Shown: positions 1,015 through 15,727, counted from the stretch's first letter. The stretch: DNA of 64,000 nucleotides from an uncultured Clostridia bacterium (GCA_947629905.1 CANRFM010000011.1:1-64000); one strand, 5' to 3'. The notes: generated by a model not told the origin, from the sequence alone. Made by a program: numbers and translations.

Positions 1015-1640
1015 GGCGTGTATACGTGTATTTCCCTGTAAATAGCCAAAAGCAGCGTGCGCAGATAGTGTTTGACCTTAAAAACCGTGTATTTTACACA
1101 TCTGCACGTCTGTCACACACTATTGTTACTCGCCTGAAATAGTGAAATATAGCCATTTACACACCTACACGCCTTTTTTCTTTGTTGCTATATATATATA
1201 TTATATTATACCATATTTTCCTGTTCTTGCAGATCCAATACAATATCTGTTTTTCTATGATAACATAGAATGAAAAAATTAAACTGCGAAAATGACAATT
1301 TTGCAATACCCGAAAGGGGGTAGCGTTTCACGACTCCCTTTGACGGAATACAAAACAATATCGAGTTTAACAAATCGTTAAAAGTCATATTTTTCAAAAA
1401 TAATATATCAAGCGGTATACCCTGAATCGGGGTATACTTAGGCTGATGTCGTGAAATGCGATGGCAGGTATAGTATATATATAAGGACAACAAGAAAAAA
1501 AGACGTGTAGGTGTGTATTTCCCTATAAATAGCCAAAACTGATGTGTAACAGGGTGCGTACAGGGTGCGTACAGGGTGCGTACAGGGTGTGCAAATCTGC
1601 AAAAACGGCGTACAGTGTACGCCGCCACGAATATTCTGTA
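1015..1640. repeat. Non-coding AT-rich inverted-repeat element, left copy (homologous in reverse complement to 54881-55291)
   Basis: 1414-1473 matches the reverse complement of 54987-55046 at 57/60 positions. The block TTTTTTCTTTGTTGCTATATATA...TTATATTATACCATATTTT (about 1174-1220) matches the reverse complement of about 55183-55222. Confidence 0.8.
1549..1592 (+). repeat. Tandem 11-bp direct repeat (ACAGGGTGCGT x3 plus variant ACAGGGTGTGC), iteron-like
   Basis: Read directly: acagggtgcgt acagggtgcgt acagggtgcgt acagggtgtgc. Confidence 0.9.
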
Positions 1641-1712
1641 AATTTCGGCAAATACTAACACCGCAGGGAGATACCCGGCAGAATTTCAGTAAAATCATAC
1701 GGAGGTAGTATC

Positions 1713-2249
1713 ATGAAAGCAACAGGCATTGTCAGAAGAATTGACGATTTGGGGCGGGTTGTCATCCCCAAAGAGATCCGCCGCACCATGCGGATCCGGG
1801 AGGGTGACCCCTTAGAAATCTACACAAGCGGTGACGGGGAAGTGATTTTCAAGAAATATTCCGCCATCGGGGAGATGAGCGAAAACGCTTCGCAGGTGGC
1901 AGATATCATGTTCAAGCTTGCCGGATGTCCGGTGGTGGTGTTTGACCGTGACCACGTGGTGGCGACATCGGGCGTGACGAAGAAGGAATTTCAGGAGCGC
2001 CGTGTCTCCCCGGAACTCGAGGAACTCATGGAGTCCCGCAAGCAGTATTTCGCCGAGGGACAGAACAGCACCCTATACCCCGTGGAGGGCGTGGAGCAGA
2101 CCTCCATTGCTGCCATGCCGATCCTCTCCGCCGGGGATGTGACCGGGGCTGTCGCCTTTTTGTCGAGCGGGAACAAGCAGACCGTTTCCGAGCTGCAAAA
2201 ATCCCTCGTCAACGCCGCTGCGCAGTTCCTTGGCAGACAGGTAGAATAG
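1713..2249 (+). CDS. spoVT: Stage V sporulation protein T, AbrB-type regulator with GAF-like C-terminus
   Basis: MKATGIVRRIDDLGRVVIPKEIRRTMRIREGDPLEIYTSGDGEVIFKKYS is the typical SpoVT AbrB N-terminus; 178 aa. Confidence 0.93.
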   Translation: MKATGIVRRIDDLGRVVIPKEIRRTMRIREGDPLEIYTSGDGEVIFKKYSAIGEMSENASQVADIMFKLAGCPVVVFDRDHVVATSGVTKKEFQERRVSPELEELMESRKQYFAEGQNSTLYPVEGVEQTSIAAMPILSAGDVTGAVAFLSSGNKQTVSELQKSLVNAAAQFLGRQVE

Positions 2250-2271
2250 CTGCGTGACGCTGCATTGAAAG

Positions 2272-2302
2272 GCAGGGGGTGTATCTGGTTCACCCCCTTT
2301 CA
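2272..2302. terminator. Hairpin terminator between convergent spoVT and phosphoesterase
   Basis: GGGGGTG-tatctggtt-CACCCCC followed by TTT, between convergent genes. Confidence 0.7.
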
Positions 2303-2307
2303 AATAA

Positions 2308-3012
2308 TTATATATAAAACTCCTCTAAATCATCCAACCGCAGACAAGCAAGCCGCCCTTTTTCCCAGCAAGCTGCACAGTCAATACAGAAATTATTGTG
2401 GCTCTTGTAAATTTCAGCCTTCCCCCAGATATGCGGTGTGGGGGTATGCCCGGTCACGACAAATATCGAATCGTCCTCAAAATACTGTATCTCCGGGTCG
2501 CTCCGGTCTTGCAGCAGTTCTTCTATCGTGTATTCCCGCAGCTTCTTCCCTTTCCGGAAATTCCCCAACCCCGCATGAACCAGCAAAAACGTGCGCTCCC
2601 CCACATCGATCATTTCATACAGGCTGAATTCCCGCAGATAGGAAAGCACATCGCTGCGCTGCGTCTCCGACAGCCCCAGAAAGCCCTCTACGGTGGGCAT
2701 ACCGCCGTCCTTACACCAACCGAAAATGTGCGATGCCGTTTCCGGGTCAAGCTGTCCGCCGGTCTTTTCTGCGGCTTCTGCCACGGACGTGAGCGCATTC
2801 AGCGCCATAACATCATGGTTGCCGTAGAGCGGGTAAATATTCGGGCGCTGCATCATGTCCAGCAAGATCTCCATCGGCTTACTGCCCCTGTCCACCACAT
2901 CCCCGAGGATGAACAGCTCGTCCTCCTCGGAAAACCGGATGAGCGCCAGCATTTCCCGGTATTTATCGTACATTCCATGTAAGTCCGACATTGCATAAAA
3001 AGCCATAGCCAT
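2308..3012 (-). CDS. Metallophosphoesterase (serine/threonine protein phosphatase-like)
   Basis: MAMAFYAMSDLHGMYDKY, GDVVDRGSKPME, YGNHD, VTGHTPTP metallophosphatase motifs. Start at 3012 chosen for the RBS GGAGG. Confidence 0.88.
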   Translation of the reverse strand: MAMAFYAMSDLHGMYDKYREMLALIRFSEEDELFILGDVVDRGSKPMEILLDMMQRPNIYPLYGNHDVMALNALTSVAEAAEKTGGQLDPETASHIFGWCKDGGMPTVEGFLGLSETQRSDVLSYLREFSLYEMIDVGERTFLLVHAGLGNFRKGKKLREYTIEELLQDRSDPEIQYFEDDSIFVVTGHTPTPHIWGKAEIYKSHNNFCIDCAACWEKGRLACLRLDDLEEFYI

Positions 3013-3099
3013 ACCTCCTGTTCTTTTTTTAGTATAACACAGAATTACAAAAAAATCAAGTACGGCGCAGACCGGACAGCTCATTTTTTACAAAAACTA

Positions 3100-3128
3100 T
3101 TGACAATTTGCACGGATTATGGTATAAT
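3100..3128 (+). promoter_or_regulatory. Sigma-A-type promoter of the TIR-TPR gene
   Basis: TTGACA (3100-3105), 17-bp spacer, TATAAT (3123-3128). Confidence 0.8.
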
Positions 3129-3191
3129 ATACAAAGATTCCTCATTCCATTTCCTGAAACCCCAAACTTTCCCATGTAAGGAGATAGGCAT

Positions 3192-5393
3192 ATGAAGTAT
3201 GTAACCAGAGGCGGCATCATCCCGCAGGGTATCCCCAAAGTCTACGTGACGGGGCACTCCAGCCAATTTATGCAGCATTTTGCGCATATCAAGGAGGATA
3301 TTCTCAAATTCAGCAATTGTGCCGTATTTTATGACCCCGACCCGGAACATCCGGAGGATATTGACCCGAAAGATCCGAAGGGCGTTGAAAAATTCAAATC
3401 GCTGCTGAAATCCATGCAGCTGGTGGTTTTAGTGGTGACGAGGCGTTTTGTCGAGGAGGACACATTCGCCTTTTCGGAGGTCTTTCAGTTTGCAAATGAA
3501 GAAACTATCCCGGTGCTGCCCATTCTCGAAGAAAACGGCATTGAAGCGGCATTTAACGAAAAATGCGGCAATATTCAAATGCTGAATCCATACTCAGAGG
3601 ATCCGACAGAGATCAGCTATGAGGACAAGCTGAAAAAGCGTTTGGATGCCGTGCTGATCGGCGATGAAATGGCTGAAAAAATTCGTGCCGCCTTTGATGC
3701 GTATGTATTTTTGAGTTACCGCAAAAAGGACAGAGAACAGGCGCAGAAGCTGATGCAGCTCATTCACAGCAATGACTTCTGCCGGGATGTGGCGATCTGG
3801 TATGATGAATTTCTGGTGCCGGGTGAGGATTTCAATCAGGCGATTGCTGCTGCCATGAAGAAAAGCGACCTCTTTGCGCTTACCGTGACACCGCACCTGC
3901 TCGAAGAAGGCAATTATGTCATGACAACCGAATATCCGGAAGCAGCCAAAGCCAATATGTCAATTCTGCCGGTGGAACTGGAAGAAACGGACAGCGAAAA
4001 GCTACAGGAAAAATACAGCGAAATTCCTACGATACTCCGTGCGGATGATGCAAATAGACTGAAACGAGCCCTGAAGCAGATATTGGGCTTAGACGATACT
4101 GTGAGAAACAATGACCCGCAGCACATGTTTTTTATCGGGCTTGCATACCTGTCCGGCATTGATGTAGAGGTCAACCGTAAACGTGCCGTGGAGCTGATCA
4201 CTGCGGCGGCGAAACAGGATCTGCCGGAAGCCATGGATAAGCTGGTCAGTATGTACCACGAGGGTGAAGGTGTAGAACGTGACTACCCCACAGCGATCGA
4301 ATGGCAGAAACGCCTTGTGGAATTGAGAGAAAAACAATACCGGCAGTCGAAAAATGTAGATAATGCTTGGAAGTGGATATACGATTTCAATCTGTTGGCG
4401 GAATATACGGAAGAGATCGGGCACTATGAGGAAGCGCTGGAAATATATAAAAATAAACTTACGGCTTTGGATGATATATCACAATTACATTATAAGATGA
4501 TTCTAAACCAATTTATATTGGCACCGGAAGATATGCAAGAATATGTGATGACATGGATCAATATCGGAAAAATATATGGAGTATTAGGAAACCTCCAAGA
4601 GGCAAAAACATGGTGCAAAAAAGCAATTGACTTTACTGAAAAACTGGCAGTACAAAGTGATAATGCCGTGATACAGCATGATTATGCACATTCTTGTTAT
4701 GCGTACGGTGGAATCTGTCAACAACAAGGTAACCTTTCTGCGGCAAAGGAATACTATGAAAAAGCAATTGTCATTTTTGAAAAATTAGCAGCGCAAAGTA
4801 ATTCCGTTGATCCACTGAGATGTCTTGGTTCTTCTTATAACAATCTTGGTAATATTTGTCAAGAGCAGGATAATCTTGCCGATGCAAAAAAATGGTATAA
4901 AAAAGCACTTTCCATTGCTGAAAAAATAGCAGCACAAAGTGATTCTGCTGAGATACAGGGAGACATTGGAGTTTTGTATGGAAAGCTTGGTGATATCTGC
5001 GAAAAACAGGGTGATCATGCCGAGGCAAAGGAATGGTATGAAAAAGCACTTGCCATCAGAGAAAGACTGGCAGCGCAAAGTGATTCTGTTGAGGCACAGA
5101 GAGACCTTTCTGTTTCTTATGACAAGTTGGGCGGTATCTGTGAGGCACAGCATGATCTTGCCGGTGCAAAAGAATGGTATGAAAAAGGACTTGTCATTGA
5201 TGAAAAAATAGCAGCACAAAGTGATTCTGTTCAGGCACAGAAAGACCTTGCTTGGTCTTATAACAAACTGCGTAGTATCTACAACAAGTTTGGTGATAGC
5301 TGTCTGGCACAGGATGATCCTGCCGGTGCAAATAAATGTCTTGAAAAAGCACTTGTCATTTTTAATGAGCTTAAAAGCAAAGGTAATTTATAA
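3192..5393 (+). CDS. Double TIR-like / Sel1 / TPR repeat protein
   Basis: TIR-like block 1 KVYVTGHSSQ...LVVLVVTRRFVEED...IPVLPILEE. TIR block 2 DAYVFLSYRKKDREQA...AIWYDEFLVPGEDFNQAIAAAMKKSDLFALTVTPH...TTEYPEA. Then a Sel1-like segment and TPR repeats AKEWYEKALAI. Confidence 0.82.
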   Translation: MKYVTRGGIIPQGIPKVYVTGHSSQFMQHFAHIKEDILKFSNCAVFYDPDPEHPEDIDPKDPKGVEKFKSLLKSMQLVVLVVTRRFVEEDTFAFSEVFQFANEETIPVLPILEENGIEAAFNEKCGNIQMLNPYSEDPTEISYEDKLKKRLDAVLIGDEMAEKIRAAFDAYVFLSYRKKDREQAQKLMQLIHSNDFCRDVAIWYDEFLVPGEDFNQAIAAAMKKSDLFALTVTPHLLEEGNYVMTTEYPEAAKANMSILPVELEETDSEKLQEKYSEIPTILRADDANRLKRALKQILGLDDTVRNNDPQHMFFIGLAYLSGIDVEVNRKRAVELITAAAKQDLPEAMDKLVSMYHEGEGVERDYPTAIEWQKRLVELREKQYRQSKNVDNAWKWIYDFNLLAEYTEEIGHYEEALEIYKNKLTALDDISQLHYKMILNQFILAPEDMQEYVMTWINIGKIYGVLGNLQEAKTWCKKAIDFTEKLAVQSDNAVIQHDYAHSCYAYGGICQQQGNLSAAKEYYEKAIVIFEKLAAQSNSVDPLRCLGSSYNNLGNICQEQDNLADAKKWYKKALSIAEKIAAQSDSAEIQGDIGVLYGKLGDICEKQGDHAEAKEWYEKALAIRERLAAQSDSVEAQRDLSVSYDKLGGICEAQHDLAGAKEWYEKGLVIDEKIAAQSDSVQAQKDLAWSYNKLRSIYNKFGDSCLAQDDPAGANKCLEKALVIFNELKSKGNL
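4640..5380 (+). repeat. TPR-encoding tandem repeats with ~141-bp period
   Basis: Motif gcagc(a/g)caaagt(g/a)attc recurs at about 4648, 4788, 4929, 5070 and 5211. Confidence 0.75.
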
Positions 5394-5458
5394 TTTTCTA
5401 ATATTATTCCAGAAAGGAAAACGTGATCCCGGGACACCGGATCACTCGGTGAAACATT

Positions 5459-6985
5459 ATGCAGCTGAATGAATTGTTAAAGGCGAAAACGATCGTGGTG
5501 CAGTGCCACAATGACCCCGATGCGGATGCTATTGCAAGCGGCTGGGGGCTGTATCAGTATTTCCACGAAAAGCAGAAAAATGTGCGGCTCATCTATGGCG
5601 GCAGCAAGCCGATCAGCAAGAAAAATCTCCTGCTGATGGTCGATCTGCTGAACATTCCCATCGAATACGTAACCGCACTGGACGAAGAACCGGACTTGCT
5701 CCTGACGGCAGATTGTCAGCCCGGCGAAAGAAATGTGCAGACTTTTGCGGCAAAACAGTATGCCGCTGTCGATCATCACAGGATCCGTGAGGAGGGGCTT
5801 GCTCACCTGTGCGCCTACGAGATCAAGGAAAATTACGGTGCGTGTGCTACGCTTGTCTGGAATCTGCTGTGTGCGGAAAAGGATTTCACCCCAAGCGGAC
5901 AGCTTGCAACGGCGTTATATTATGGGCTGTTTATGGACACCTGCAAATTACAGGAAATTTACCAGCAGGAAGACCGCATTGTGCGCAACAAGCTGGAAAA
6001 ATTATTCGATGAATCCATTCAGAAAAAGCTCATCACCCACAACCTGAATTTGTCAGAGCTTACCATTGTGGGAAAGGCACTGGAAAATGTGACCTACAAT
6101 GAAAAATACCGCTTTGCCATTGCAGAAGCAGAACCCTGCGACCCGAATATTCTGGGCATCATTTCCGACCAGATCAACGAAGTGGACGGCATTGACATTT
6201 GTGTGATCTTTACCCTGCTGCCGATCGGTGCAAAACTGTCTGTCCGCAGCTGTATCGGGCAGGCACAGGCAAATGAAATAGCCCATTACCTTGCAAACGG
6301 CGGCGGACATAAGCAGAAAGCCGGCGGAATGCTCACCAACGGAATGCTCACGAAAAATACAGGCATCACGGAGATCACCGGAGAAGCCGTGACAAGATAT
6401 CTCACCGAAAAGCTGCAAGCCTATTTTGACGATCTGGATATTATCATTGCAGGGCAGAGCAGTTCAATAGACCTGTCGGATGCGCCCATGTATCAGAAGC
6501 GCCGTTACGAGATCGGTTTTGTCCATATGACCGACGTTTACCATGTCGGGGACAAGATCAGGCTCATGACCCTTGAGGGAGATGTGGACAGGGTAGTCGA
6601 TGACAATCTGTACGTGATGATCGGCATTGAGCATGAAGTGTACGATAACACACGGGATTATTTTGAAAGTCACAATGAAATTTGCGACGAACCGTTTTCC
6701 ATTACAGAACAAGAGCTTTCTGACGTGGAAAGGCTGGTCTGCGGCGTGAATACGGATACCAGATCCATCGCAGGACATATCGGAAAATGCTTCCCGAAAA
6801 CCTCTCAGATCCGTGCCGTGCAGGCATCACGCCCCACAAAAATTCTGGCAAAATACGGAAACTGGCTCAGCGGAGAACCGGGAGATTATATCGTTTCCAG
6901 AGCAGAAGACCCCACGGATATGTACATTGTCCAGAAGCGTATTTTTGAAAAGACCTATGAACCTTTGAAGATGTCTGAAACCTGA
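5459..6985 (+). CDS. DHH/DHHA1 family phosphoesterase with C-terminal extension
   Basis: HNDPDADAIASGWGL, DHHRI, and C-terminal NGGGHKQKAGGML (DHHA1) motifs. Confidence 0.9.
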   Translation: MQLNELLKAKTIVVQCHNDPDADAIASGWGLYQYFHEKQKNVRLIYGGSKPISKKNLLLMVDLLNIPIEYVTALDEEPDLLLTADCQPGERNVQTFAAKQYAAVDHHRIREEGLAHLCAYEIKENYGACATLVWNLLCAEKDFTPSGQLATALYYGLFMDTCKLQEIYQQEDRIVRNKLEKLFDESIQKKLITHNLNLSELTIVGKALENVTYNEKYRFAIAEAEPCDPNILGIISDQINEVDGIDICVIFTLLPIGAKLSVRSCIGQAQANEIAHYLANGGGHKQKAGGMLTNGMLTKNTGITEITGEAVTRYLTEKLQAYFDDLDIIIAGQSSSIDLSDAPMYQKRRYEIGFVHMTDVYHVGDKIRLMTLEGDVDRVVDDNLYVMIGIEHEVYDNTRDYFESHNEICDEPFSITEQELSDVERLVCGVNTDTRSIAGHIGKCFPKTSQIRAVQASRPTKILAKYGNWLSGEPGDYIVSRAEDPTDMYIVQKRIFEKTYEPLKMSET

Positions 6986-6996
6986 TGCTCCCACTC

Positions 6997-7029
6997 GTAT
7001 CAACCCTCACCTGAAATGAGGGTTGATAC
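6997..7029. terminator. Perfect 13-bp inverted repeat after the DHH gene
   Basis: GTATCAACCCTCA-CCTGAAA-TGAGGGTTGATAC. No strong T-run, so the terminator role is tentative. Confidence 0.5.
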
Positions 7030-7169
7030 CTCCCCGGAGAATTTGGCAGGATAGCTAATTCCTACTGGTGAATTTAGGCAATATGTACAAAATTTATAGC
7101 TTGCACCTCCCCTATTGCCGGAAAGGGGCTTGTTTTTTCTGCCCGTATGTGATATAATAAAAGTGACAT

Positions 7170-7243
7170 GTTTCCGTAGCTCAGCTGGATAGAGCGGCCG
7201 CCTCCTAAGCGGCAGGTCGGGTGTTCGAATCACCTCGGGAACG
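7170..7243 (+). tRNA. tRNA-Arg (anticodon CCT)
   Basis: Acceptor stem GTTTCCG/CGGGAAC, D arm AGCTCAGCTGGATAGAGC, anticodon arm GCCGC-CTCCTAA-GCGGC, T arm GGGTGTTCGAATCACC. CCA not encoded. Confidence 0.95.
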
Positions 7244-7254
7244 CTGCAAAAAAG

Positions 7255-7312
7255 CAGGAACAATCTGTGAGGCTGCCGTTTTGAGACAGTACTGCAGATT
7301 GTTCCTGTTTCG
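7255..7312 (+). terminator. Inverted-repeat terminator downstream of tRNA-Arg
   Basis: CAGGAACAATCTG ... CAGATTGTTCCTG followed by TTTCGTTTT. Confidence 0.65.
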
Positions 7313-7314
7313 TT

Positions 7315-8292
7315 TTATACTGACTTCTTCCGGCAGAGCATGACCGACATCAGCAACAAGCACAGCCCCGGCAAAATACTTCCGCCATACACAGCAGGGC
7401 GGATCTCCGGCAGAAAAACCTGCTCAGCCCCGAGGAACTGCATCCCGACCGCCGCAAAGACATATGCCATCGCAGCCGCTGCCGCCCGGAATGCCCAGAA
7501 CAGCAGCCACCGCACATTCCCCTCGCAGATCGCAGCCGCCTGCAAATGCACGCAGACTCCCCCGAACGCAAGCAGCGCCGCCGCCCCCGGCAATGAACCG
7601 CCCGCAGCCGTAAATGCAGTCACACAGCTGATCTCCAGCAAACTGCGCAAAACCGGCACATCCGGCAGACCCATGCCATCCAAAATGCCCAGCACTGCCC
7701 CGAATGCCGTTACCATTGCCGTAATTTTCAGCATTGCCGCTGCGGCGCTCTCCACCGCCTCCGTAAAAAACTGCACACCCGCTTTTCGGACAGGAGGATG
7801 AGACATTTCCGCTTTGCGGGGCAGAACCAACGGCGCAAGCAGCAAGTTCGGCAAGCTCACCGAAAGCAGCAGCCAAAGTCCCACTCCGACCGGCTGCTTC
7901 CCGCAAACCGTTCCGAGCAAAAACCCCGGACCGCAGCCCATACACACGCACAAAAGTCTGCTTTCCTCGGCTGCCGTGATACTGCCATCCTCCCGCATCG
8001 TGTGCAGGAGCTGCGCCCCGACCGGATAACCGCCCACCTGCGAAAATAACAGCACTGCCACAAGCCTTGCCTCATACCGTCCGCTGATGAACCGCAGCGG
8101 CTTTGCCAAAAGCCCCGGCAGTCCGATTTTTACGCTGTACGCCGCCAAAATCGAGAACCCATACAGGGACGGCAGCAACACCCGCAAACAGCGCTCCCCT
8201 GCTGTATAAATGCCCGCTGCCGTCTGCGCATGGAACACCACCGCACCGACCGTCAGCACCCCCAAAACCACCGCAAGCCCGATTCGTTTCAT
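7315..8292 (-). CDS. YlbJ-like sporulation / nucleoside-recognition domain membrane protein
   Basis: MKRIGLAVVLGVLTVG...LLPSLYGFSILAAY...FSQVGGYPVGAQLL...CGPGFLLGTV. Multi-TM with the GGYPVGA motif typical of YlbJ-type proteins; next to yqfC/yqfD. Confidence 0.72.
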   Translation of the reverse strand: MKRIGLAVVLGVLTVGAVVFHAQTAAGIYTAGERCLRVLLPSLYGFSILAAYSVKIGLPGLLAKPLRFISGRYEARLVAVLLFSQVGGYPVGAQLLHTMREDGSITAAEESRLLCVCMGCGPGFLLGTVCGKQPVGVGLWLLLSVSLPNLLLAPLVLPRKAEMSHPPVRKAGVQFFTEAVESAAAAMLKITAMVTAFGAVLGILDGMGLPDVPVLRSLLEISCVTAFTAAGGSLPGAAALLAFGGVCVHLQAAAICEGNVRWLLFWAFRAAAAAMAYVFAAVGMQFLGAEQVFLPEIRPAVYGGSILPGLCLLLMSVMLCRKKSV

Positions 8293-8384: not shown

Positions 8385-8648
8385 TTGCGCAAGGGTCTGA
8401 AACGCACATTCATGAGCTGGATGTATCTGGACAGCTACATCAGCCTGCACGGTAACGAATCGCTCCGGCTCGAAAACTGCCGGCGCATTTTAGAATATAA
8501 TGATGTGCTTGTCCGTTTGCAGACACCCGACATGACGGTCGAGGTCTGGGGCACGGGGCTGCGGGTGTTTGATTACAATGACAACAGTGTCCTTGTGACC
8601 GGAAAAATCACCTCCGTCCACCTTTCCGAAAGGAGGAAACGCACGTGA
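8385..8648 (+). CDS. yqfC: YabP/YqfC family sporulation protein
   Basis: Small protein directly upstream of yqfD; ...ENCRRILEYNDVLVRLQTPDMTVEVWGTGLRVFDYNDNSVLVTGKITSV resembles YqfC. TTG start with RBS GAGGTG. Confidence 0.8.
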   Translation: MRKGLKRTFMSWMYLDSYISLHGNESLRLENCRRILEYNDVLVRLQTPDMTVEVWGTGLRVFDYNDNSVLVTGKITSVHLSERRKRT

Positions 8649-9805
8649 ATTTCCGGGAATACTGCGACATTGAAGCCTCCGGCGGCAACCCCTACCCTTT
8701 CATCAATGCCATCCGCCAAAGCCCCGTTGCCTGCGGCAATCAACACTGCCGGGGCAGTATATTCTGCTGCCGGGTCGCACGCTCCGACCTTGAAGCATTG
8801 CAGGAGATCGCCGCCCGCTGCCATATGCAGCTGAACATTCGCCGGAAGCGTTCAGTACTGGGGATGTTCCGGCGCTATCGGTTTCGGGTCGGCTTGGCGG
8901 CGGGTATCCTGTTGGGGGCTGTGCTGCTGTTCTACCAGTCGAATGTCGTTGAAACCATCGAATTACAGGGCAATTCCACGGTTGCCGACAGTGTCATTCT
9001 CAGCATCCTCGAAGAGGAGGGCGTACACCGGGGCGTTTGGATTCCGGATATGGATATGCTGCACCTTGAAAGGCGCTTGCGGGCTGCCGTGCCTGACCTT
9101 GCGTGGGTCGGCATCCGGCACACCGGCAACCGCCTTGTGGTGGAGGTGACAGAAGTCAAGCACGCCCCCGAACTGCTCCACGAGCGCACCCCCTGCAACA
9201 TCATCGCCGCCGAAAATGCCCAGATCACAGACGTTAAGGTGTATGCCGGACATCTGGAGCGCCTGATCGGGGACGGTGTCGCAAAGGGCGACCTGCTTGT
9301 CAGCGGGATGTACACGAACGAACGTGGGCTGATGTCCTATCATCACGCCATTGCCTCAGTGACGGGCATTTTTGAGCGGGAGACAGAGCTGACAGAACCT
9401 TTCACCGTCACGGAGACTGTGCCGACCGGAAATGTCGTCCAACAGAAATGGCTACGCATTTTTGGGCTGAAACTCCCCCTGACATTCCAGCAGCCAGATT
9501 TTACAGAAAGCACCGCAGAGGAAACGGAGACAGCATTCTCCTTTTTAGGCATGACGCTGCCCTGCGGTATTCTTCAGCGTACCACCGCCGAAACCGTCAC
9601 GACGGAAACCACCCGCACCGAAGAAGAAGTCCGCCTTGCCCTGCACGCAGCCGTTGTCCGCTATGAAAAAAATCTGCTCGCCGATGTGACGATACTGAAC
9701 CGGACACTGGACTACACCCCCGGAGAGGACGGCATCACCTGCCACCTGTACTATCGGGTAGAGGGCGAGATCGGGACTGAATCAGACTTCTATATCCAAA
9801 AATAA
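8645..9805 (+). CDS. yqfD: Sporulation protein YqfD
   Basis: Single TM then IELQGNSTV...SILEEEGVHRGVW...WVGIRHTGNRLVVEVTE typical of YqfD; 4-bp overlap with yqfC. Confidence 0.85.
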   Translation: MNFREYCDIEASGGNPYPFINAIRQSPVACGNQHCRGSIFCCRVARSDLEALQEIAARCHMQLNIRRKRSVLGMFRRYRFRVGLAAGILLGAVLLFYQSNVVETIELQGNSTVADSVILSILEEEGVHRGVWIPDMDMLHLERRLRAAVPDLAWVGIRHTGNRLVVEVTEVKHAPELLHERTPCNIIAAENAQITDVKVYAGHLERLIGDGVAKGDLLVSGMYTNERGLMSYHHAIASVTGIFERETELTEPFTVTETVPTGNVVQQKWLRIFGLKLPLTFQQPDFTESTAEETETAFSFLGMTLPCGILQRTTAETVTTETTRTEEEVRLALHAAVVRYEKNLLADVTILNRTLDYTPGEDGITCHLYYRVEGEIGTESDFYIQK

Positions 9806-9834
9806 AACAGGACTGCCGAAGCAGCCCTGTTTTT
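9806..9834. terminator. Bidirectional terminator between yqfD and GH9
   Basis: AACAGGACTGC-CGAA-GCAGCCCTGTTTTT. Confidence 0.75.
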
Positions 9835-9846
9835 GAATATCTGTTA

Positions 9847-12800
9847 TTATTGTGCAGCAATCGGGAAATCAGCCTGTGTGAGGATCTCGATAACCAGCTG
9901 CAGAATGTTCAGTGCATCGTAAGGAGCAACTGCACCATCCTGATCAACGTCAGCATTGGTAATACCCTGATCAGTCAGTGTAGCACCGTCAACGTTCATC
10001 AGCATCTGGTTTACAGCGATAACATCAGACAAATTTACAGTACCATTGCAGTCAGCATCGCCCCAGATGATATCGCCTGTTACAGACGGCTTGGTATCAC
10101 TCTCACCCTCTGTCGGAGTGGTGGGCTTGGTCGGCTTCGTTGTAGTGCCGCTGCCATCAGCTTCAGCAGCTTCATCCTGCATGAAGGATGCGATCCATGC
10201 GAGCGGTGCGTTCCAGTTGATGGTAACCTCGTTGGTAGACCATGCTTCGATGGAGTCTACATAGCATCTCTGAGACGGGTTGCTGTCATCGCCCGGAACA
10301 AAGCCCAGTGCACGTACATACGGGTCTTGCAGACCTGCGTTAGGACCACCGGACAGAACGCCGTCAGGAGCCAGAGGCAGAGTCTTGTCAAGTTCGTAAG
10401 ACCAGTATCTGTGGTGCGGGTTCGTCAGCTTGTAAGAACCGTAACCAGAAACGAAGGAGAAGGACAGCGGGTTGCAGCCGAGCAGGTAGTCCAGTGCGGA
10501 AACAACGCCGTTCATGTAGGTCACATCGCCAGTCAGGTCATAAGCATAAGCCATAACGATCGTGTTGTTGATGACCATGGAGTTGGAACCCCACTCATAG
10601 CCTTGGATCATAACACTCTCAGGCAGGTTGTTCGGGTCGTTGTAAGGATCACCGTCATACTTGTAGGGGATACCATAACCCTGTACAGCCTCTTCATCTA
10701 CATAAGCCTGTGCAGCTTCTACGATGGAATCTTCCACAGTCTTCTTCTGCGTATCATCCAGCAGATCTTCATGCAGTGCCAGTGTCAGAGAACCAGCAGA
10801 TGCTGTGTTGCCCCAGTTGAAGGAGGTGAAAGAACCCTTGTTCTCACCGCCGGTGCATCTTGTCGTTACCTTGAAAGCATCCTTGTATTCGGAGAGTTTG
10901 TCAAAATACGTAGAGGCATCCGCATCGCCCATTTCGCTTGCGGAAACGAAGATCTCGCAAGCTGCCCAGTAAGCATCATCCTTGACCTCGGTATCACCGT
11001 AAGGACCACCGCCCTTTGCCTGATACATCGGTGCATAGAGAGAAGTCTCATTCTCCTCTTCCTTGGTAAAGTGAGAGCCCTGTGTCAGGTCAGCCGGATA
11101 ATAGTGTGCCTCATAAGCTGCATATGCCTTCTTTGCTTCATCCAGATAGAATGCAGCCTTTTCAGCATCATAATCCTTCCAAAGTCTTGCTGCCTGTGCT
11201 GCGCAAGCTGCGTAGTTCAGGGTAGCTGCGAACGTCGGCGGCTTTACGATACGAACAGTCTCCCATTCCTTTTCATAGTCCCACGGTCTTGTAGCCAGAC
11301 CAGTCCACTTGTGGTCGTGCAGCTTGTGGTATACCATACCTGCATACTTGCCCCATGTCGGATCATCCGGCTGAACGACCATCTTGGTCATCCAGTCAAG
11401 CTCGTAAGCACACTCATCGAGGATATCCGGGATCTTGTTGCCGTTCTCCGGGATAATGATCGTACCAGAATCATCAGCGAACTTTTCGTTACCTGCATCC
11501 GGATCAACGGTGATCGCTCTCTCGTACATATTCTGGAGCGTCCATACAGAGATACCGCCGTTTACAACGTACTTACCATGGTCACCGGCATCGTACCAGC
11601 CGCCGGATGCAGTCATAGTTCCGGAAGCATAAGTCCCGGTAGCCTCTTCCTTGCTTGCGTACTCATTCTTCCAGATCTTCTGGATAGAAGCCGTATCTGT
11701 CTTGTGACCGCCTTCGTGACCCATGCCTGTGCCCTTGCCGTCAGAGCCGCCGGATGTACAATATTTATCTTCAATATCGATACCGGAACGGTTCTGATAG
11801 AAGTAGTTGACCGCATTGGTCAGCAGGTCATGCGAATCATCGGAATAGATGTTGTCGCCGATGTTGAAATCGAACGATCTCCAATCCTTGCCCTTGATGC
11901 GCAGGAAGTATCTGCCGGGCGTGGTGTAATCGGAGAAGTCGAGCTTGCAGACAGTATCTGCGGAATCCGGATCCTTGAATGCCTTGCCGGACGTTCCCTC
12001 ATAAACGACCTTGTTAGATTTAGAATCCACCAGCTCAAAGTCGTAAGTATCGCCTACGCCGATAGAGATCTTGGTAGCGCCATATACGATGTCGCCTTGG
12101 TTGTCGCCCAGTGTAGCGATCTTAGCCAGATTGGAGTAGTAACCGATCTGGTTTACGGAGATAAAGTTGACAGGCTCACCGTCTACCTGCAATTCCGGAT
12201 GTCCTACTACGCTGTAGTTACGGTCTGTTGCACCGTAGGACTTGCCCGGGTCAGCATCGCAGTCGTCGCAGGTCAGGCACTCGATGGACATATCATCGAA
12301 CCAAAGCTCGTCGCCCTCCTGTGCATTGCCCTCAAACTCGTGACCCATTGCATAGTGGAATGCCCACTCAATGCCTTCCAGATCTTGGGTCGGCTTGAAT
12401 ATGCCCTCATAGGTCTGCCAGTCCGTGGAAAGGATAGCAGCACTGCCGTACTGACCGCCCATGTGCGGACCCATGTGCATATTGCCCTGATTGCCGTCCA
12501 GCTCGAAGTACTCCTCATCGCCCTTGATATTACCGATCTTGGAGCAGAGCTGCATACCGGCTCTCTTTGCCTTTACCTTAAAGCTTACCTTGTACTCATG
12601 ATTTGCCTTGAAATTGAGGTTCCTGCATCTGAACTGCAGATCCCACTTCTCACCGTCGCCGCCCTCCGGCACGAGGACTGTCAGGTGAACTACACCGTTG
12701 TCACCTTCCTTGGTCAGCTCAAACTCCTGCTTTGCAGGACTTGTCTCACAGGTGTGCCACGGAAGCGCCTTGTAATCGAAGGACGTTTCACCAAGCACCT

Positions 12801-12903
12801 GACCTGCTGAAACATCGATCGGCGCAAATTCTGCAGCCATCGGTGCGAGCATTGCCACAGCCATGATCCCGGCTATGACAGCTCTGGAAAATTTCTTATG
12901 CAT
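9847..12903 (-). CDS. GH9 cellulase with CBM4-like and Ig-like N-terminal domains and C-terminal type I dockerin
   Basis: GGWYDAGDHGKYVVNGGISVWTL (GH9), PHHRYWSY late GH9 motif, N-terminal CBM4/9-like region. Dockerin GDADCNGTVNLSDVIAVNQMLMN...ADVDQDGAVAPYDALNILQLVIE; signal peptide. Confidence 0.93.
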   Translation of the reverse strand: MHKKFSRAVIAGIMAVAMLAPMAAEFAPIDVSAGQVLGETSFDYKALPWHTCETSPAKQEFELTKEGDNGVVHLTVLVPEGGDGEKWDLQFRCRNLNFKANHEYKVSFKVKAKRAGMQLCSKIGNIKGDEEYFELDGNQGNMHMGPHMGGQYGSAAILSTDWQTYEGIFKPTQDLEGIEWAFHYAMGHEFEGNAQEGDELWFDDMSIECLTCDDCDADPGKSYGATDRNYSVVGHPELQVDGEPVNFISVNQIGYYSNLAKIATLGDNQGDIVYGATKISIGVGDTYDFELVDSKSNKVVYEGTSGKAFKDPDSADTVCKLDFSDYTTPGRYFLRIKGKDWRSFDFNIGDNIYSDDSHDLLTNAVNYFYQNRSGIDIEDKYCTSGGSDGKGTGMGHEGGHKTDTASIQKIWKNEYASKEEATGTYASGTMTASGGWYDAGDHGKYVVNGGISVWTLQNMYERAITVDPDAGNEKFADDSGTIIIPENGNKIPDILDECAYELDWMTKMVVQPDDPTWGKYAGMVYHKLHDHKWTGLATRPWDYEKEWETVRIVKPPTFAATLNYAACAAQAARLWKDYDAEKAAFYLDEAKKAYAAYEAHYYPADLTQGSHFTKEEENETSLYAPMYQAKGGGPYGDTEVKDDAYWAACEIFVSASEMGDADASTYFDKLSEYKDAFKVTTRCTGGENKGSFTSFNWGNTASAGSLTLALHEDLLDDTQKKTVEDSIVEAAQAYVDEEAVQGYGIPYKYDGDPYNDPNNLPESVMIQGYEWGSNSMVINNTIVMAYAYDLTGDVTYMNGVVSALDYLLGCNPLSFSFVSGYGSYKLTNPHHRYWSYELDKTLPLAPDGVLSGGPNAGLQDPYVRALGFVPGDDSNPSQRCYVDSIEAWSTNEVTINWNAPLAWIASFMQDEAAEADGSGTTTKPTKPTTPTEGESDTKPSVTGDIIWGDADCNGTVNLSDVIAVNQMLMNVDGATLTDQGITNADVDQDGAVAPYDALNILQLVIEILTQADFPIAAQ

Positions 12904-13166: not shown

Positions 13167-15554
13167 TTACACCGGCAATTCCGGGATAATTTCAATCACA
13201 TAGCACAGGATATTGAGCGCATCCGCAGGAGCAAGCAAGCCATCCCTATCCACATCGCCGTTGTGCTGCTGCTGTTCATCCAGTGTGGTGAGGTTCAGCA
13301 GAAAACGGTTCAGCTCAATGACATCCGCAAGATTGACCTTGCCGTCCACCTCTACGTCGCCATAAACCACATCGCCCGGTACAGGTTCAGTAGCCTCGCC
13401 GCCGGAAGTCGTGTCCTCCGGTTCAACCGGTGCAGGGCGGGTCGGTGTCTCCACGTCCGGCGTTGTGCCGTCCGGCTCGATGCCCCATACCAGCTCATCA
13501 TTCACGTACATGGTAATATGTTCGTTGAGTGAATCGCTGCTCTTGAGGTCGGTAGCTGTTTCGATACCGCCCAGATAGGAGTAGTCATTCGTGGGATCCC
13601 ATGCGCCCGTTGTCGGCTGTCCGTCCACAGCATCCGGAATGGAGACACGGAACTGCACCTCGTCACGGTGTTCACTCTGTCCGGTCGGCTGGATCGCACG
13701 TCCGTCCGGGAACTGGATCAGCGCATAGTAGGTATTGCCTGTCGGGTCGCCGTCATACTTGAAAGGACCGGAAACTTCGGCAAAGCCCTGCTCTCCCTCC
13801 TGATACTGCTGAGAACCGCAGATAATGGAAATATCATCCACGGAAAGCCCAGCCGCCAGCACTTCTGAAACATCGAAATAGTAGCGGTAGGAAACATTCT
13901 TCTCCACTCTTGCCGGCCAAGCCGTATGGTTCATCGCCCAAGCCTTGATCTCCGTGTAGCTGTCGCCGGAACCATTCAGGACGGCTGCGACTTCCCATTC
14001 TGCCCACTTCGGCGTTTCTGTCGGCGGGAAATCTGCCAGCGGTGTTCCGCCGTGGTCGTCGATCATAGCGCAGAGGCAAGCCGTATAGCCCGCATTGTAG
14101 TCGATAGCGACCTCTGTATACTGGTAGTCCGAAACTTTATAGCTGCCGTAACTGCCCGTGTTGTCCGGACCGCCGATCAGTGCGCCGTAAAGGGTATGTG
14201 CATATTCGGTCTGCCAGCCCTCTTCGCCGCCTGTTTCCTGACCGAGTTCGTTCCAGTGGTCGTCATGGATGCCGGAAGCAGTTCTGTGGTGGATGGCAGT
14301 AGGCTGCTTATCGCCCATACCGAGCACATAGCTCATATTTTCCTCATTATCACCGAAGCAGTAGTCCATCTGACTGTCTGCCCATTCGTCAAACTTCTGC
14401 ACCTTTGCAGCATCGTCCTTGAAGATCGTATCGCTGGCAAGCTTTGCCAAGAATGCCGTATTGGTAGCATGGCGCAGGCAGCCCCAGTTGGTGAGGTGAG
14501 AAAGCCCGCCGGGGGTCACTTTTCCCTCAAAGGGTTTCAGCCCGGCAGCTTCGCCCTCATTCATCCAGTAGCGGAGGTGCTTTTCAATATGGTTGATCCA
14601 TTCTTCTTTCCCGGTGATCTGCGCATAGAGGAGTGCCGCAGCCTGTGTCGTATCATCCCATGCAAGCCCCCACGTATATTTCCAGTCGGTAGACTGATTT
14701 TCTTGTGGGAAATTTGGGATATAGTCGCTCTCGATCTTGTCCAGATACGCCTGATCGCCGGTCGCTTTATAGAGCCAGCAAGCAGCATACATACAGTCAT
14801 CGACCCATGTAGAAGTATTGTACATCCCCGACATACCGCCGACATCTTTCGTATCACGGATCGCATCTGCGCCCTCGAAAAGATCTTTTGCGTGCTCAAG
14901 GTATTCCGCTGCCTTGTCAGGGTCGCTGTCTTTGAAGATCATGTACCCCTGTGCAAGCGCCGCTGCGGAAAGGGCAGCAACGGTGGAGTTTTCGATGATG
15001 TCATAGGGACGTTCCCAGTCGTCGTTGTTCAGGTGATGCTTTCTCAGGTAAACTTCGGCGCTGCACCAGATATTATGATCCGTCGAACCCCCCGTAAAGT
15101 CGCCGATCGTGCCGACCATTTTTCCGCCGCCACGGTCTGCGCCAAGGACATAATCCATGCCCCACTGGATGTTGTTCCGGTAAAGCTCACCAAGCCCTGC
15201 GCCGTCTACAGCATCCTGATACTCCATATAGCCCCATGCTAAAATGGACGCACTATAGGCATTTGTCAGGGTGAATTTGAAGTGGTCGCCCGCATCGAAC
15301 CAGCCGCCGGGAACGACATCTGTTTCCTTGCCGTCCTCGTCCACCATAGAATTGGAACGCCATGAGACCTCGTTCCATTCCGGCAGAACGCCCGACTGCT
15401 GCACCTCATAGAAGAACATGGACTTCTGAAGCGCTTCCGCATAGTTGTAGTCTCCCTCTGCCCTGACGGTCAGCGGGACAGCTGCCTGCATGGGTGCGCT
15501 CAGTGCAGCAGCACACACAGCAAGCCCGGCAAGGAATGCCGTCAATTTTTTCAT
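13167..15554 (-). CDS. GH9 endoglucanase with CBM3c-like domain and C-terminal dockerin
   Basis: YNYAEALQKSMFFYEVQQSG, PGGWFDAGDHFKFTLTNAYSASIL, HHRTASG. CBM3c-like WAEWEVAAVLNGSGDSYTEIKAWAMNHTAWPARV. Dockerin GDVEVDGKVNLADVIELNRFLLN...GDVDRDGLLAPADALNILCYVIE. Start MKKLTAF. Confidence 0.93.
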   Translation of the reverse strand: MKKLTAFLAGLAVCAAALSAPMQAAVPLTVRAEGDYNYAEALQKSMFFYEVQQSGVLPEWNEVSWRSNSMVDEDGKETDVVPGGWFDAGDHFKFTLTNAYSASILAWGYMEYQDAVDGAGLGELYRNNIQWGMDYVLGADRGGGKMVGTIGDFTGGSTDHNIWCSAEVYLRKHHLNNDDWERPYDIIENSTVAALSAAALAQGYMIFKDSDPDKAAEYLEHAKDLFEGADAIRDTKDVGGMSGMYNTSTWVDDCMYAACWLYKATGDQAYLDKIESDYIPNFPQENQSTDWKYTWGLAWDDTTQAAALLYAQITGKEEWINHIEKHLRYWMNEGEAAGLKPFEGKVTPGGLSHLTNWGCLRHATNTAFLAKLASDTIFKDDAAKVQKFDEWADSQMDYCFGDNEENMSYVLGMGDKQPTAIHHRTASGIHDDHWNELGQETGGEEGWQTEYAHTLYGALIGGPDNTGSYGSYKVSDYQYTEVAIDYNAGYTACLCAMIDDHGGTPLADFPPTETPKWAEWEVAAVLNGSGDSYTEIKAWAMNHTAWPARVEKNVSYRYYFDVSEVLAAGLSVDDISIICGSQQYQEGEQGFAEVSGPFKYDGDPTGNTYYALIQFPDGRAIQPTGQSEHRDEVQFRVSIPDAVDGQPTTGAWDPTNDYSYLGGIETATDLKSSDSLNEHITMYVNDELVWGIEPDGTTPDVETPTRPAPVEPEDTTSGGEATEPVPGDVVYGDVEVDGKVNLADVIELNRFLLNLTTLDEQQQHNGDVDRDGLLAPADALNILCYVIEIIPELPV

Positions 15555-15727
15555 AGTATCTTCCCCTCTCTGAAAAGAACAGCTTCGTCCGCCCCCGAAA
15601 GGGCGCATATGTATACTTTTATTGTACACGAAACGGCGTGGTTTGTCAAGTGTTTTAACAAAAATAAACCAGAATGCCCGACAAGATGCAGGATTTTCCA
15701 CGCACACTGTTATTCAGCGCTTACATA

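Follow-up and report, generated by a model that had tools for sequence, protein, structure and literature searches.

The locus considered here lies in a 64,000-nucleotide stretch of an uncultured Clostridia bacterium (GCA_947629905.1 CANRFM010000011.1:1-64000), referred to below as the window, and comprises two codirectional genes, the first coding for a protein with TIR domains followed by Sel1 and TPR repeats and the second for a phosphoesterase of the DHH-DHHA1 type (Table 1). The coordinates and strand given for both ORFs in the first-pass annotation, an earlier reading of the same DNA, and the 65-bp spacing between them proved exact. That reading had further placed both genes under one strong promoter: the sigma-70 element upstream of the TIR gene is as strong as was claimed, and the sharing of it is what we infer from the shortness of the gap and from the lack within it of a promoter comparable to that element, which together point to co-transcription of the two genes.

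Table 1. Features of the TIR-DHH locus, in window coordinates
Feature	Coordinates	Strand	Evidence
Sigma-70 promoter TTGACA-17-TATAAT, TG ahead of -10	3100..3128	+	12/12 consensus
TIR-TIR-Sel1-TPR protein, 733 aa	3192..5393	+	ORF; Pfam TIR_2, Sel1, TPR
First TIR domain, divergent, probably non-catalytic	3231..3641	+	hhalign 97.8% to second TIR, 91.8% to other TIRs
Second TIR domain (TIR_2), likely catalytic	3705..4004	+	Pfam 1.2e-11
Codon of presumed catalytic glutamate E247	3930..3932	+	invariant in 10 relatives
Sel1 then TPR repeats, ~aa 312-725, presumed sensor or scaffold	4125..5366	+	Pfam
Modest intergenic hairpin without T tract	5423..5445	+	whole gap folds at -16.4 kcal/mol, z -1.85
DHH-DHHA1 phosphoesterase with C-terminal tandem beta domain, 508 aa	5459..6985	+	Pfam; model pLDDT 89
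DHH and DHHA1 catalytic core	5489..6340	+	D21 D23 D85 D105 H106 H107 D160 invariant, 93 relatives
C-terminal tandem "PGDY" all-beta domain	6476..6973	+	model pLDDT 92; best Foldseek E 0.14; PGDYG E 0.03
Strong perfect 13-bp hairpin, no T tract	6997..7029	+	z -5.3; starts 11 bases past DHH stop codon

Pfam detects only the second of the TIR domains (residues 172–271), along with the Sel1 (E 3.8e-15) and TPR (E 3e-28) arrays that had been described downstream of it. The N-terminal ~140 residues nevertheless form a divergent TIR fold, which is recovered by profile-profile comparison. Thus, the earlier claim of two TIR-like domains stands at the level of the fold, whereas the position of the catalytic glutamate is conserved only in the second: in the first it varies among relatives, while in the second E247, in the sequence TTE-YPEA, is invariant in the 10-member alignment. 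This difference suggests that the first TIR is probably a regulatory or structural part of the protein, and that of the two only the second looks catalytic. The motifs singled out earlier (LSYRKKD, WYDE and TTEYPEA) are all present in the protein, and the glutamate expected near the last of them is this E247.

The identity of the downstream gene, which had been called as a DHH/DHHA1 phosphoesterase, is borne out by Pfam (DHH 9e-13; DHHA1 1.3e-5, with a DHHA1 score of 26.0 bits, just over the cut-off of 25.9). All the core residues given in Table 1 are invariant across the 93 sequences aligned, as is H17, and in the GGGH motif of DHHA1 G283 and K287 are likewise invariant, with H284 present in 90 of the 93. 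Among the closest PDB folds to the AlphaFold model are TM1595 and GdpP, phosphodiesterases of pApA/c-di-AMP, along with NrnA and Rv2837c, the resemblance extending over approximately the first 330 residues. The last ~165 residues, overlooked in the first-pass annotation, constitute a confidently modeled all-beta domain for which no counterpart was found in the PDB by sequence or by fold; its two halves are weakly alike (hhalign E 2e-4, probability 44%), and it carries a faint PGDYG signal. This additional domain, together with an NCBIfam NrnA score of 26.3 bits against a cut-off of 350, rules out NrnA proper as the identity of the protein.

The relationship between the two genes can be assessed across a wider sample: a full-length DHH family alignment yielded 551 relatives, the best 80 of which were kept as public loci. 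In 51 of these best 80, the DHH gene has a TIR gene at a distance of no more than 150 bp, with 31 on its downstream side and 12 on its upstream side in the same orientation (43 altogether) and eight convergent; one of the 51 is doubtful (L135), its presumed TIR partner being called by Pfam only as FHA. Among the same best 80 of 551, many of the pairs overlap or are separated by no more than 20 bp, and the link is confined to the immediately adjoining gene, TIR genes accounting for 51/155 ORFs at an offset of one as against 3/136, 1/123, 1/112 and 0/90 at offsets of two to five (5/461 when pooled). On the DHH tree, adjacency switches at least 23 times, with 18 switches forced by well-supported branches (for this count the convergent state of L205, which has a truncated WD40 neighbor where its contig ends, was assigned manually), and so the arrangement is not one old inherited pair. 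TIR and DHH genes have instead become neighbors time and again in gut Clostridia, and not via common descent. No TIR gene was seen beside NrnA-like control loci within their 1.5-kb flanks. A parallel picture emerges from the family of the window's genome, in which full-length DHH is sporadic (16 of 249 genomes): TIR_2 occurs in 68 of the 249 but in 13 of the 16 with full-length DHH (Fisher p 5e-6), and a TIR gene directly adjoins DHH in nine of the 14 scored genomes versus 0.025 expected by chance.

Neighborhood conservation of TIR-TPR with DHH, which had been named earlier as a check on the pair, is therefore found to recur across Clostridia, in several orders and with several TIR architectures, and the contrary prospect of a housekeeping DHH gene whose relatives stand without TIR largely fails in the face of the 51 of the best 80 loci. 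As for the signaling-immunity pair originally proposed, the linkage, the co-occurrence and the RyR company described below strongly support a functional pairing of the two proteins; the making and erasing of a signal by them, and any immune role, are the parts that stay proposals. About 30% of the DHH loci in the best 80 of 551 are devoid of a neighboring TIR, and DHH may therefore be functional on its own as well. Two genomes of the family (G119 and G183) have DHH and zero TIR_2 matches, the locus being complete or the gene near-complete. Neither of the two nearest DHH relatives of the window (L062 and L130) has an adjacent TIR: in L130, the second-closest, the DHH gene (60% identical) is followed by one (8532–10176, +) for a TPR protein with no recognized TIR. 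The N-terminal part of that protein, which has no Pfam match, looks TIR-like or DUF4062-like by eye. In G063, where DHH is 64% identical to that of the window, two TIR-TIR-TPR genes are present elsewhere and none by DHH. A TIR gene ahead of DHH was observed in no member of this lineage other than the window, with G030 having DHH followed by TIR-TIR-TPR. The position next to glnS is constant for some DHH genes, whether or not a TIR gene intervenes.

The TIR partners are architecturally diverse, including TIR-TIR-TPR, TIR-WD40 or beta-propeller, TIR-MORN, TIR-DUF6273 and TIR-RsgI_M proteins as well as short TIR proteins. Several pairs are further accompanied by the RyR domain, a module of animal calcium channels tied to cADPR, which occurs either in small proteins (G203, L135, L142 and L174) or joined to a hydrophobic segment that presumably lies in the membrane (G030, G148 and L133, with a relative of the latter type of protein in L132). 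In the family sample, RyR co-occurs with TIR (14/16, p 3e-7) and more weakly with DHH (4/16, p 0.013). In the proteins at L063 3417–4838 (−), L064 952–2361 (−) and L133 3575–4966 (+), the hydrophobic part is N-terminal and the RyR domain C-terminal, and such proteins near TIR-DHH pairs are candidates for a signal-gated membrane effector. RyR genes beside TIR in the absence of any DHH (L110, L117, L119, L116 and L115) were seen as well, making RyR-TIR a second recurrent pairing. The window's own genome has no RyR, its one match being a false positive that corresponds to an acetolactate synthase, and no effector was identified in it. In a different association, DHH and a GGDEF-EAL gene share 4 bp in L169 (with L197 similar by eye), an arrangement that would suit the clearance of nucleotide signals.

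Searches of databases and the literature placed the pair in no described system. Neither PADLOC nor NCBIfam offered a system fitting the window pair or the scanned partners, and comparisons with the ThsB and ThcB4 models gave weak matches only. In the papers searched for TIR with DHH, RyR with TIR, and PGDYG, the pairing is not described, although an earlier mention is possible; Burroughs et al. 2015 (NAR) reportedly treats TIR and related nucleotide systems. A search of genome contigs that used only the window DHH and one of viral contigs that used the DHH family alignment were both without matches, and the plasmid matches of DHH were set aside as covering the NrnA-like core only. Two "phage" records with full-length DHH are unannotated fecal contigs that we read as bacterial, one of them carrying an overlapping TIR-DHH pair near ilv genes. 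Judged by eye among the listed neighbors, no obvious defense islands surround the TIR-DHH pairs.

Of the known systems, Thoeris comes to mind in that it too has a TIR protein that may both respond to a cue and produce an NAD+-derived signal, and that is operon-coupled to a more constant second protein; the window pair differs in having a DHH phosphoesterase as partner. The assignment to Thoeris was rejected, as neither ThsA nor any other known Thoeris effector was detected beside the TIR gene (Pfam and NCBIfam for the neighbors, PADLOC for the window genes). A closer parallel on the DHH side is the CorA-NrN branch of type III-B CRISPR, in which the signaling genes likewise adjoin one for a DHH-family phosphodiesterase whose active site is intact: NrN, the DHH enzyme beside corA, specifically degrades the antiviral messenger SAM-AMP, and immunity in a plasmid assay depends on its active site (PMC10600005). 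There, Cas10 is the signal maker and CorA the effector, whereas here the presumed maker is the TIR protein, CRISPR is absent, and the DHH protein has its extra C-terminal domain; with neither Cas10 nor CorA beside the window DHH, membership in that branch was likewise discarded. On the side of the RyR domain, phage RyDEP cleaves TIR-made 2'/3'cADPR, for which no degrading enzyme was known before it, which shows that cleavage or binding of TIR-made cADPR is within the reach of RyR proteins (PMC13232231). Compared with the RyR glycosidases and sponges of phages, the RyR proteins beside several TIR-DHH pairs retain the His, Trp and Asp equivalent to the cADPR contacts of RyDEP; they differ in being encoded in bacterial genomes beside a presumed signal maker, and in that most of those adjoining DHH, namely the small ones, have lost the second His of the RyDEP-type site. 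According to a 2025 review (PMC12072042), no phosphodiesterases of bacterial origin were found for the CBASS-type signals that it covers. Finally, GdpP, the TM1595 phosphodiesterase, NrnA and Rv2837c share the catalytic core and residues of the window DHH, and none of them matches its C-terminal tandem beta domain.

From bacteria to plants and animals, TIR proteins use NAD+ to make alarm molecules, and the enzyme family to which the DHH protein belongs degrades small nucleotides. The reading we favor, with a probability of roughly 45%, is that the two genes form an accessory nucleotide-signaling module in which the second TIR would make an NAD+-derived signal that the DHH enzyme would erase, thereby resetting the system. 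The TPR/Sel1 part might sense a cue, with the first TIR serving as scaffold or regulator, upon which the second TIR would convert NAD+ to a small signal of the ADP-ribose type or to a cyclic nucleotide. The DHH-DHHA1 protein, as a two-metal phosphodiesterase, would set a threshold by hydrolyzing this signal or the product of its initial breakdown, and its additional beta domain may bind a ligand or a partner; in those relatives that have them, the RyR proteins, whether small and soluble or membrane-fused, could be binders, cleavers or effectors of the signal. NAD+ as the substrate, the nature of the signal and the erasing role of DHH are thus predictions from the domains, and so is any role of the pair in phage defense or immunity. 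What is observed on behalf of such a module are the folds, the intact active sites and the recurrent linkage; the making and erasing of a signal fits the intact sites of both the second TIR and DHH, with NrN as a close published analog, and is plausible as the leading and best-supported model. Arguing against it, DHH enzymes cleave phosphoesters, while the known eraser of cADPR cleaves a ribose-ribose bond; furthermore, the loci and genomes described above have DHH in the absence of a TIR partner, the two nearest relatives have no TIR next to it, and the window's genome has neither RyR nor an identified effector.

The constancy of DHH in the face of changing TIR partners (TPR, WD40, MORN and DUF6273) is also what might be expected if DHH were itself the effector, with one constant protein serving many TIR sensors as in Thoeris: the TIR product would bind the C-terminal tandem beta domain and activate DHH as a nuclease against an essential nucleotide or short RNAs. 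The extra domain could be such a receptor, and no other effector was found beside the window pair; the variable partner and the extra domain make this role conceivable. Yet we regard it as rather unlikely, since DHH is retained without TIR in many loci, its core resembles that of clearance enzymes, DHH enzymes already described as partners in immune systems serve to erase signals (PMC10600005), and the RyR-membrane proteins look like better effectors where they are present.

The same TIR-less loci, the fixed place of some DHH genes beside glnS and the overlap with GGDEF-EAL in L169 would suit a general housekeeping or stress phosphodiesterase acting in the turnover of nanoRNA, pApA or c-di-AMP, its adjacency to TIR arising from genome organization. 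This is improbable given that the gene is sporadic in the family, unlike a housekeeping gene, and that its link to TIR, which involves the next gene only, recurs in diverse contexts and gene orders at a rate well beyond chance. Least probable of the alternatives is a TIR protein that acts as a toxin by depleting NAD+, or as a scaffold, and yields no diffusible signal, with DHH as an antidote or a processor of by-products such as ADP-ribose. The divergence of the first TIR, the TPR or WD40 arrays that are suited to assembly, and the close coupling of the two genes would all be in keeping with it, but the persistence of DHH without TIR and the lack of a fixed gene order would be unusual for a toxin-antidote pair, and RyR domains, cADPR binders in phages, accompany several of the pairs.

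Returning to the favored reading of a signal made by TIR and erased by DHH, TIR-DHH, in some cases with RyR, looks like a recurrent nucleotide-signaling module that was previously uncharacterized, and what would be new in it is TIR-based nucleotide signaling equipped with a dedicated phosphodiesterase. The linkage in many Clostridia provides concrete pairs for joint tests of the production and erasure of TIR signals, and places the RyR domain next to bacterial TIR genes. A more far-reaching possibility, which we hold only tentatively and consider doubtful as a whole, is that these loci represent an undescribed and widespread clostridial system with swappable TIR sensors, RyR proteins that, where present, sense or cleave the signal, and a dedicated host DHH enzyme, bearing a new C-terminal domain, that erases it, such DHH proteins then being a host-encoded off-switch for TIR signals.

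In its genomic setting, the pair is adjoined by genes for a metallophosphoesterase, SpoVT and a YlbJ-like protein, with a tRNA-Arg gene at 7170; the hairpin past the DHH gene has no second copy elsewhere in this genome. G620, the closest relative examined, aligns to the window at 89% from 7324 onward and not before, and its spoVT is on a different contig; what lies from spoVT to the YlbJ-like gene, inclusive of TIR-DHH, is therefore accessory. Synteny with this nearest relative thus stops by the tRNA-Arg gene, and in G211 the tRNA stretch is inverted; the comparison of the region 1600–7324 with these two genomes suggests a site of rearrangement or insertion. The metallophosphoesterase, encoded divergently to the TIR gene (2308–3084, −), is of the calcineurin type and related to ApaH-like phosphatases, and is found in only nine of the 21 genomes of the genus, at other places there. 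A fragment of a DUF5906 or poxvirus D5-like primase-helicase at the start of the contig (127–1014, +) is perhaps the remnant of a mobile element. Further along, two large secreted proteins (9847–12903 and 13167–15707, both −) appear by eye to be GH9-like cellulases with C-terminal dockerin-like repeats, which suggests a cellulose-degrading bacterium of the cellulosome type.
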